In this document: piece by piece, positions 17,737 through 27,784 of the stretch
Layout of the letters: each line of letters begins with the position of its first letter
Position numbering within the stretch: the stretch's first letter is position 1
DNA from: Nitrospirota bacterium
Lineage (GTDB): Bacteria; Nitrospirota; JACRHL01
DNA: 56,905 nucleotides
Assembly (NCBI GenBank): GCA_029858285.1
Contig: JAOUFN010000016.1
Location: 1-56,905 of the forward strand
Direction of reading: 5' to 3'
Notes under the pieces: generated by a model
The model's input: only the letters and a program-made list of their open reading frames with translations
Database searches by the model: none
What the model was told of the DNA's origin: nothing
Position numbers and translations under genes: made by a program

Positions 17737-18559
17737 TGGAGGTTCCCTCCGGCAGGGTGGGTGACGGTTCCGCCTTCTCCGACTCCTCTTCCGGGGGCGC
17801 CGGTGGCGGGGTGGTGTACAGCACCGGCAGCAGGGATTCGATCTGCTCTGCGGACAGCGGTCCGCCCTGTGCCTTGCCGAAGCCGGGCATCTCGGTGCCA
17901 AGGCGTCCGCTGGTGATCATGTCGCGCAGGAACCCGGCGGATTCCGGCGGATAGGCGCCCAGGGCCGGGGCGGTCTTGCCCTGACGCTGGCGACCGTGAC
18001 AGAACCAGCAGGAAGCGTCGTACAGCTCCTGCCCCAGCTTGCCCACGGTGGGGTCCACGTGGCACTCGGCGCATTTGGGGCCGAACAAGGTCTCGCCGAC
18101 CTTGAAGCCCTCGTGCATCGAGGCGTCCACCTGGGCCACCACCTTCAGCTCCAGTTCCGGCTCCTCGCTGTCGTTGGAATGCACGGTGATGACACGGGTC
18201 ACCTCGCCGCTGCGGGCGGCGGAGTCGTAGCTGACGTCGATGAAGCTCTGGCCCCCCGGCGGGATGACGTCCTGGCCCGCCAGCACCGCCGTGCAGCCGC
18301 AGGGGGTGGTGACTTCCGAGATGGCCAGGTCCGCGTCTCCAACGTTGGTGAAATAGAAGCGGTAATCCATCACCTTGCCCTGCACCACGCGCCCGAAGTG
18401 GTGCTCCCGCTCCTGAAATTCCATGCGCGGTCCCGCCCAGGCGGTGGCGGTGGTCAACCAAAGCACACCCCAAAGCACACCGCAAAGTACGCCGCAAAGT
18501 GCGGCGGCGGGCAGCCGCCGCATCGGTTGGCGCGGCTGTAGACTCGCCTGTGGACTCAT
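17708..18559 (-). CDS. DUF1573 / cytochrome c fusion protein
   Basis: The 283-residue protein begins with a signal peptide made unusual by a repeated LCGVLCGVLWGVLW core (residues 21-34), with likely cleavage after TAWA. Residues about 45-145 form a DUF1573 immunoglobulin-like domain (HHFGRVVQGKVMDYRFYFTNVGDADLAI, then TTPCGCT). A C-terminal cytochrome domain has two CxxCH haem motifs, CAECH at 163-167 and CWFCH at 184-188, plus Met residues such as GTEMPGFG that may act as distal ligands. A Pro/Glu-rich tail follows. Its ATG overlaps the stop of the DsbA-like gene (TAATG), so the two are coupled. The fusion of DUF1573 to a cytochrome is notable; the electron partners are unknown. Confidence 0.85.
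   Translation of the reverse strand: MSPQASLQPRQPMRRLPAAALCGVLCGVLWGVLWLTTATAWAGPRMEFQEREHHFGRVVQGKVMDYRFYFTNVGDADLAISEVTTPCGCTAVLAGQDVIPPGGQSFIDVSYDSAARSGEVTRVITVHSNDSEEPELELKVVAQVDASMHEGFKVGETLFGPKCAECHVDPTVGKLGQELYDASCWFCHGRQRQGKTAPALGAYPPESAGFLRDMITSGRLGTEMPGFGKAQGGPLSAEQIESLLPVLYTTPPPAPPEEESEKAEPSPTLPEGTSSAAPKPFFQ
18459..18506. repeat. Four 12-bp tandem units in a signal-peptide coding region
   Basis: Successive units CAAAGCACACCC, CAAAGCACACCG, CAAAGTACGCCG and CAAAGTGCGGCG encode, on the minus strand, the hydrophobic core LCGVLCGVLWGVLW. Changes in copy number would lengthen the signal peptide in steps of four residues. Confidence 0.85.
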
Positions 18560-25870: not shown

Positions 25871-25887
25871 GGGGGGTGAAGTGGAGA

Positions 25888-25945
25888 CACGCGGAGCGGC
25901 CCGCACCTGGGTGTGGGGTGGAGGAATCGGGTGGCGCTCCGCGTG
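25888..25945. repeat. 11-bp inverted repeat downstream of the microprotein genes
   Basis: CACGCGGAGCG (25888-25898) and CGCTCCGCGTG (25935-25945) are perfect complements separated by 36 bases. On the plus strand CCTTTTTG follows. It may be an RNA structure in the 3' region of the minus-strand operon. Confidence 0.6.
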
Positions 25946-25982
25946 CCTTTTTGTGCAGCCGTCCGTGGCCGCGAACAGAGCG

Positions 25983-26126
25983 TTACGCAGCCCGCTTCAA
26001 TCCGGCCACCGGCGCGCAGGTGGTGGTGCTGGTGGGCTTTTGGCGGGTCATGCGAACCCCCAGGGCAAGGAACAGGCCCGAGCCGATGGCGGTGGTGACG
26101 ATGCAGGCGTAGATGAGCGTGAACAT
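25983..26126 (-). CDS. Single-span microprotein B (47 residues)
   Basis: This short gene encodes 47 residues: MFTLIYACIVTTAIGSG, then LFLALGVRMTRQK, then a polar tail ending KRAA. Residues 3-24 form one strong transmembrane helix with small-residue motifs (AIGSG, ALG), followed by positive charges that would stay in the cytoplasm. An AGGAGAGG ribosome site stands 8 bases before the ATG. It is paralogous to the gene just upstream (26175-26315): both begin MF-x-L-x-Y and share IV-x-T and a Gly/Ala-rich second half. It is below normal size cut-offs for gene calling. A membrane adaptor role for the upstream GAF protein is inference; no known family is recognised. Confidence 0.75.
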   Translation of the reverse strand: MFTLIYACIVTTAIGSGLFLALGVRMTRQKPTSTTTCAPVAGLKRAA

Positions 26127-26174
26127 GGGTTTTCCTCTCCTGTACGGTGTGGTGGGACGGTCGGGGGTTGGGGC

Positions 26175-26315
26175 TTACGCGGCCTTCCGCGCTGCTCCGG
26201 CCGTTGCGTTGCCGGTGCCCGGGTCGCGCCGCCGGGCCGGGCGAACGACCCCGGCGCGCAGCAGAATGGCCCCGGAAACGGTGGCCACGATGGTGGTGTA
26301 GACGAGTGCGAACAT
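26175..26315 (-). CDS. Single-span microprotein A (46 residues)
   Basis: This encodes 46 residues: MFALVYTTIVATVSGAILL, then RAGVVRPARRRD, then a Gly/Ala-rich tail ending ARKAA. Residues 2-19 form a transmembrane helix, followed by a cluster of five Arg that fixes the C-terminus inside. The AGGAG site overlaps the TAG stop of the GAF gene (TAGGAG), 12 bases before this ATG, so translation is almost certainly coupled to it. A similar microprotein follows after 48 bases. The pair looks like an old tandem duplication, with conserved N-terminal halves and diverged tails. No database family can be named from memory. Confidence 0.75.
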   Translation of the reverse strand: MFALVYTTIVATVSGAILLRAGVVRPARRRDPGTGNATAGAARKAA

Positions 26316-26327
26316 GGTCGGGATCTC

Positions 26328-27461
26328 CTATGCGGTAGCGGACGTGGGGGCGGATACGGGTTCGGTCGGCGTATAAGGGGCATCCATAAGGCCCGCCGGG
26401 TCGGCCATCAGGTGGGGTGCCGCCACCCGCGCCAACCCCTCCGCCAGCTTCCGGTCGGCGGGGTCGAAGTGGCCGGGGCCGTGGGGTGCCGACTTGTCGA
26501 GGAATGACAGTGTGCCCACGATGCGGTTGCCACCGGTTGCCGTGGCCATCCATACCGGCACGCACAGCACGCTGGACGACACGGCCGGGACCGCCTTCAG
26601 GCTGGAAGCGAGGGTGCGGTAATCGTTGATGCACACCCCCTCGCCGCTGGCCAAAACCGTTCCCGCGATGCCTTCGCCGGGGGCCAAGGGAGACAGCCCT
26701 TGATCCGCCAGGTCGCCACCCGCGGCGCAAACCACCTCAAGCCTGCCGCTGTCGGGCTGCCAGCGGCGCAGTACGGCGCCGGTGGCGAACAGGGCGCGGC
26801 GGCTGCGGGCCAGCAAATGGGGCAAAAAATCGCCAGTGGGCGCCGCGTCCCGGGCGCCCGCCCACAGCAGCACGTCGATGGCCGCTTCCTGGCGCGCGGT
26901 GCGCTGCTCCAGCAGGGCCGCCCGCACCATGGCGCCGACCTTGTAGCCGACGGCACCCACCAGCAGCCGCTCGTACTCGCTGAACGGGTGCACGCTGCGG
27001 TGCTGCACGTTGATGACGCCGACAAAGGAACGGTCCGCGACCACCGGCACGGAAAGCAGGGAGCGGAAACGCTCCTCGTGGGTTTCTGGCAGGTACTTGA
27101 AGCGTGGATCGTCGTGGGCGTCCGCGAGGGCCACCGCCTCCATGTGTTCCGCCACCCAGCCGGTCACGCCCTCGCCGAGGCGCAGGCGGGCGTGCCCAAC
27201 CGCCTCCGGCGCCAGTCCGGAGCTGGCCTCCAGCACCAGCCACTCGTTTTCGGCGTCGAGCAGGTAGACAGAGCAGACGTCGCACCCCAGCTTGAGGCGG
27301 ATGACCTGGGTGACCGCGTTCAGGCGGGCGGGGAGCTCCAGCACCGAATCGGCGATGCAGTCCAGCGCGTAGTGCAGTTCCGCCAGGCGGGTGCGGTGAC
27401 GGGAAAAGGCCTCTTCCAGCTTGCGAACAGCGGTTTCGGCAAATGTGGGTGTGGCTGACAT
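26328..27461 (-). CDS. Tandem GAF-domain sensor protein
   Basis: The 377-residue soluble protein has a short coiled N-terminus (TAVRKLEEAFSRHRTRLAELHYAL). A GAF domain at about 40-180 contains CDVCSVYLLDAENEWLVLEASSG and LRLGEGVTGWVAEHMEAVAL, followed by RSLLSVPVV and GVINVQHR, similar to the GAF domain of PtsP. A second, more diverged GAF-like domain covers about 200-355 (APGEGIAGTVLASGEGVCI and GTLSFLDKS). No kinase, cyclase, EAL or other output domain is present. The ATG at 27461 has AGGGAG 7 bases upstream. Two microprotein genes follow immediately, so signal output may pass through them; this is inference. Possible ligands are small molecules or cyclic nucleotides, not determinable here. 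Confidence 0.85.
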   Translation of the reverse strand: MSATPTFAETAVRKLEEAFSRHRTRLAELHYALDCIADSVLELPARLNAVTQVIRLKLGCDVCSVYLLDAENEWLVLEASSGLAPEAVGHARLRLGEGVTGWVAEHMEAVALADAHDDPRFKYLPETHEERFRSLLSVPVVADRSFVGVINVQHRSVHPFSEYERLLVGAVGYKVGAMVRAALLEQRTARQEAAIDVLLWAGARDAAPTGDFLPHLLARSRRALFATGAVLRRWQPDSGRLEVVCAAGGDLADQGLSPLAPGEGIAGTVLASGEGVCINDYRTLASSLKAVPAVSSSVLCVPVWMATATGGNRIVGTLSFLDKSAPHGPGHFDPADRKLAEGLARVAAPHLMADPAGLMDAPYTPTEPVSAPTSATA

Positions 27462-27784
27462 GACAATCTCCCTGCGTTCAATGCCCGGTGGGTTCCGGGT
27501 ACACAGGCGGATACAACAAAAGCCGTGCCACAAGGCGACATTCCGCACCGTAGAGAGGCCACAACCAATTGAAAAAATTAATTAATAAATTATAAAACCC
27601 ACACGTTGCGGGGGGGGGATGGCGGCGTGGGGCCGGGCTGGGAGGCGGCGAATCAGGGTCGGGAATGTAGGGAGTCAGACAATTTGGTTGCAGGCCCCCA
27701 GAGGCCGATCACGGCGGGGGACTTCAGCCGGGGCGGTGTGGACCGCCCGTTCCGACGCGGTGACATGGACGGGGGTATTTTGAG
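27462..27784. other. Intergenic region with AT-rich island
   Basis: No gene is supported. Positions 27569-27597 form an AT-rich tract (GAAAAAATTAATTAATAAATTATAAAA split over two runs) in an otherwise very GC-rich genome. On the minus strand it contains TATAAT and probably acts as promoter/UP-element or protein-binding site for the GAF gene. Confidence 0.5.

Follow-up and report, generated by a model that had tools for sequence, protein, structure and literature searches.

The window analysed here, a 56,905-nucleotide stretch from the genome of a Nitrospirota bacterium (G000), carries on its reverse strand a tandem-GAF gene followed by two short genes for predicted membrane microproteins. The following features were located in this part of the window.

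27560..27605, minus strand: AT-rich stretch upstream of the -24 element (read by eye, weak)
27515..27530, minus strand: sigma-54-type promoter TGGCACGGCTTTTGTT (-24/-12), upstream of the GAF gene
26328..27461, minus strand: tandem-GAF gene, 377 aa, without output domain
26325..26329, minus strand: ribosome site AGGAG of microprotein 1, overlapping the GAF stop codon TAG (26330-26328)
26175..26315, minus strand: microprotein 1 gene, 46 aa, MFALVYTTIVATVSGAILLRAGVVRPARRRDPGTGNATAGAARKAA
26137..26141, minus strand: ribosome site AGGAG of microprotein 2, read from the sequence
25983..26126, minus strand: microprotein 2 gene, 47 aa, MFTLIYACIVTTAIGSGLFLALGVRMTRQKPTSTTTCAPVAGLKRAA
25847..25870, minus strand: intrinsic terminator hairpin of 10 G-C pairs, then TCTTTTTT

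An earlier note on this DNA had described two short genes after the tandem-GAF gene, each with a strong ribosome site, and we verified both the coordinates and the AGGAG sites. The overlap it reported between the first ribosome site and the GAF stop codon is also present, as the TAG forms part of TAGGAG. The unit of GAF and microprotein genes is closed, as proposed, by a strong terminator with an all-GC stem and a T-run after it. Adjacency, the ribosome sites, and the common terminator support a three-gene operon, and the window pair appears to be co-transcribed with the GAF gene. An inverted repeat with 14-nt arms around a 36-nt loop (25885..25948) lies between the microprotein 2 gene and the terminator. 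In the GAF protein, Pfam detected two GAF matches (PF01590, E 1.3e-27, and PF13185, E 3.5e-25, with two stretches each) and no domain beyond these, in line with the suggested lack of an output domain.

The microproteins form a previously unnamed family that is absent from Pfam and NCBIfam: searches of both collections gave no family above the curated cut-offs, and the earlier note had recognised none. The family has ten members of 45 to 48 aa in three genera. All ten begin with MF or MY, and their last two residues are Ala-Ala, in most cases preceded by K or R (KKAA or KRAA); none of the 86 long open frames of the window has this Ala-Ala ending. In each member, a single hydrophobic stretch spans about 19 residues; four to seven basic residues follow it and none precede it. 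The MF-x-L-x-Y start, single helix, and basic tail noted earlier are present in both window microproteins. The two tails had been said to differ; the tail is indeed variable, but both C-termini end in a basic-Ala-Ala pattern (K-R-A-A and R-K-A-A) that was overlooked. AlphaFold predicted a helix at residues 2 to 29 with high confidence and a tail with low confidence. By hydropathy and predicted helix, the microproteins share with two-component-regulated small membrane proteins a single membrane helix and a length of no more than about 50 aa.

Three paralogues of microprotein 2 are encoded elsewhere in the genome (E 4e-15, 2e-13, and 3e-8), and it is 70% identical to one of the copies on contig C38 (E 4.4e-15). 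Microprotein 1 shares 33% identity with the C38 reference copy; it matches the family profile with an E value of 2.7e-16, although its own sequence belongs to that profile. Among close copies, pN/pS was 0.36 to 0.59 (0.40 to 0.59 for microprotein 2 versus the C38 copies), so the close copies are probably translated. Together with the three paralogues, these low ratios argue that the window reading frames are not due to chance. For microprotein 1 versus other copies, pN/pS was about 1, a value that is uninformative for distant pairs. Because of this ratio and its divergence, microprotein 1 could be decaying or neofunctionalised.

We compared the window genome with two sister genera (G001 and G003) and a fourth genus (G002). 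G000 contains three more copies in tandem (C38:43943-44457, spaced at 187 bp), G001 has four (three at C22 and the fourth at C23), and G003 has one; no family members were found in G002 (540 contigs, 91% complete). In two heavily overlapping 396-genome samples of the phylum, strong profile matches were confined to the bacterial family, with none in about 390 further genomes outside it. Weak matches outside the bacterial family (E 3e-4 to 1e-3) fell inside frames of 361 to 477 aa and were discarded as membrane-helix noise. A tblastn search of the microproteins against phage and plasmid collections gave no match.

The C38 array is syntenic with the G003 copy: in both, the order is a glmM-like (phosphoglucosamine-mutase-like) gene, a CXXCH cytochrome gene, and the microprotein. 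Since the microproteins hold the same position in both genomes, the site after these two genes is taken as the ancestral one. The window pair probably derives from C38 through a duplication that landed in the GAF operon, given the 70% identity of microprotein 2 and the nearly equal unit spacing (189 bp in the window versus 187 bp at C38).

The closest relatives of the first, N-terminal GAF domain are the GAF domains of PtsP (EI-Ntr) and the N terminus of NifA, the likeness to PtsP coming from structures. Unlike these proteins, the GAF protein consists of two GAF domains only and lacks a phosphotransferase or AAA+ domain; it is probably either a bystander or a partner that binds a ligand in the cytosol. 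Orthologues are 69% identical in G003, where the gene adjoins an rnc-like gene as in G000, and 58% identical in G001. In a scan of named genomes, the protein matched only two distant Deltaproteobacteria MAGs. A sigma-54-type promoter is kept upstream of all three orthologues (TGGCACGGCTTTTGTT, TGGCACAGACCTTGTT, and TGGCACGGTCATTGCT), which implies that transcription from an enhancer-dependent promoter should extend through the window pair. The pattern TGGCAC-N5-TTG[CT]T occurs 14, 10, and 10 times per genome versus 2, 4, and 2 times for the reversed control. Compared with the published sigma-54 consensus tGGcacg/tTGCt (PMC4641369), the -24 element fits in all three, whereas the -12 element is TTGT in G000 and G003 and TTGC only in G001. 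A single IHF-like site with one mismatch (about 27574-27562) was seen within the AT-rich stretch of the window; it is weak and was read by eye.

A different signal precedes most of the other copies. The pattern TTCA-N7-TTCAG-N10-TA comprises two directly repeated pentamers with six bases between them and, ten bases on, a -10-like element. It has 4, 4, 4, and 5 sites in the four genomes, and the reversed pattern has 0. This putative response-regulator operator lies upstream of four of the six microprotein transcription units (the C38 array, both C22 units of G001, and the G003 gene), 80 to 100 bp before the starts, but not near the window pair; within the window, pentamer pairs with one mismatch occur only at 18144 and 28497. 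In G002, the putative operator precedes an operon of PepSY, OmpR-family regulator, and histidine kinase genes, and in G000, a one-mismatch version precedes an operon encoding cytochrome b561-DUF1924, a diheme cytochrome, PepSY, and an OmpR-type regulator. Its position before the regulator's own operon in two genomes, suggestive of autoregulation, points to a PepSY-linked OmpR-type response regulator as the protein acting at the putative operator. The regulator is predicted to bind there, and the place of the microproteins in its regulon is indicated by operator and synteny. Further operator sites precede genes for a group of related secreted proteins (YfdX-like, sub-threshold), MsrB, and AMMECR1-like proteins. 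The YfdX identity is weakened, as PF10938 matched only one of six members, and that one below its cut-off (19.0 bits versus 26.6), and no YfdX structure match was obtained for these neighbours. At L162:8398-14159 (G000:C7), the operator, b561/DUF1924, diheme cytochrome, PepSY, regulator, and a kinase-like frame make up one apparent operon.

Similar regulatory modules are known. DbfQRS-like PepSY-regulator-kinase modules are described as widespread (PMC12714742), and the operator of Pseudomonas BqsR is given as TTAAG-N6-TTAAG (PMC4682146). BqsRS/DbfQRS and the regulon described here both combine a PepSY protein, an OmpR-type regulator, and a kinase in one operon, and the operators have the same layout with a different pentamer (TTCAG-N6-TTCAG here). 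The regulon here takes in new microproteins, which were not found in the excerpts of either source. Small DUF1127 proteins, which bind PhoR (PMC12501420), are likewise below 50 aa and present in several copies per genome and set a precedent for microprotein control of kinases, although the window microproteins have no DUF1127 Pfam match. MgrB, a 47-aa inhibitor of PhoQ, is made under PhoP (PMC8404706, PMC10576120). The family resembles MgrB in size, in its one membrane helix, and in belonging to an OmpR-family two-component regulon, but there is no sequence match at Pfam and NCBIfam cut-offs. The functional region of MgrB is periplasmic, whereas the conserved tail here is predicted to be cytoplasmic; the copies here also stand in tandem, and an interaction with a kinase is putative.

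We therefore favour, with a probability of about one-half, a reading in which the family comprises lineage-specific membrane microproteins of a stress regulon that probably act as MgrB-like modulators, one duplicated pair having been captured by a sigma-54/GAF operon. The microproteins would be single-pass inner-membrane proteins of 45 to 48 residues, and most copies in the bacterial family would be expressed within a stress regulon under a PepSY-linked OmpR/QseB/BqsR-type two-component system. The window pair, lying behind the GAF gene, would be co-transcribed from the sigma-54-type promoter, its two copies having exchanged the two-component system for enhancer-dependent control. Judged by charge bias, the N-terminus would face outwards and the basic tail would be cytoplasmic. 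Beyond the regulon context, the modulator partner and the turnover are guesses: the helix may pack on a larger membrane protein, as MgrB does on PhoQ, most plausibly a sensor kinase or other envelope protein of the same regulon, and the C-terminal Ala-Ala, which resembles ClpXP C-degrons (ssrA-like ALAA or MuA-like RRKKAI; PMC8138137), may keep the microprotein short-lived. Both the cytosolic tail and the degron are predictions from the sequence.

The main rival to a modulator role is that the microproteins serve as small accessory subunits in a respiratory or redox complex of the envelope, as CydX does for its oxidase. A CXXCH cytochrome gene stands directly before the C38 and G003 copies, and the operator is common to MsrB and the b561/DUF1924/diheme cytochrome operon. 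Nevertheless, the operator stands between the cytochrome gene and the microprotein, there is no likeness to any Pfam or NCBIfam subunit family, and tandem amplification, dispersed sites, and a variable tail would be unusual for a stoichiometric subunit, which leaves this role unlikely.

The earlier note had instead proposed a dedicated module in which ligand sensing by the GAF protein would be passed on through both membrane microproteins, and had suggested searching for the pair beside GAF proteins, naming a lack of conservation in genomes that keep this gene as evidence to the contrary. The sister genera come close to that outcome: no microprotein genes directly follow the GAF orthologues of G001 and G003, microproteins without an adjoining GAF gene occur in three genera, and, of the six microprotein transcription units, five have no GAF gene beside them. 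The tight adjacency in the window, with its stop-overlapping ribosome site and common terminator, still speaks for such a module, as does the C23 family member of G001, which is 4.7 kb from the GAF gene with oppositely oriented genes between. We consider the module improbable, and possible for the window genus only; the link seems to be a local rewiring of recent date, not a conserved machine. Since GAF orthologues and microproteins coexist in G001 and G003, the two may be functionally linked without being neighbours. Similarly doubtful is a reading in which the GAF operon carries along a duplicate pair that has lost its function or is decaying. In its favour, the other GAF loci lack the pair, and microprotein 1 has diverged, its pN/pS being about 1. 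Against it, neither frame is interrupted, both genes have strong ribosome sites and keep the AA end, and the ratios for microprotein 2 versus the C38 copies are low. More speculative still is an extension of the modulator reading, in which short-lived, cytoplasm-facing, tandem-amplified microproteins would carry the two-component stress signal to other membrane targets and the window pair, rewired to GAF/sigma-54, would physically join the two systems.

The favoured modulator reading adds a microprotein group, specific to one bacterial family, with a defined promoter context. It illustrates how small membrane proteins can multiply and change regulator inside a single bacterial family, the change for one pair being unusual, and it offers a concrete, testable link between a regulator and microproteins, where such proteins are usually orphans.

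Two further observations concern the sister genera. Within 6 kb at L072:1109-6939 (G001:C23), the GAF orthologue shares its neighbourhood with a microprotein, a pentapeptide-repeat protein, and two YfdX-like genes driven by the operator. G003 carries a noncoding repeat, at least 500 bp long (L133:1840-2600 and L071:6850-7700), with 32 matches in its own genome and 0 in the three sister genomes; Rfam gave no match in L069, L071, or L133. One copy of this repeat lies behind the GAF gene and another behind the microprotein gene.
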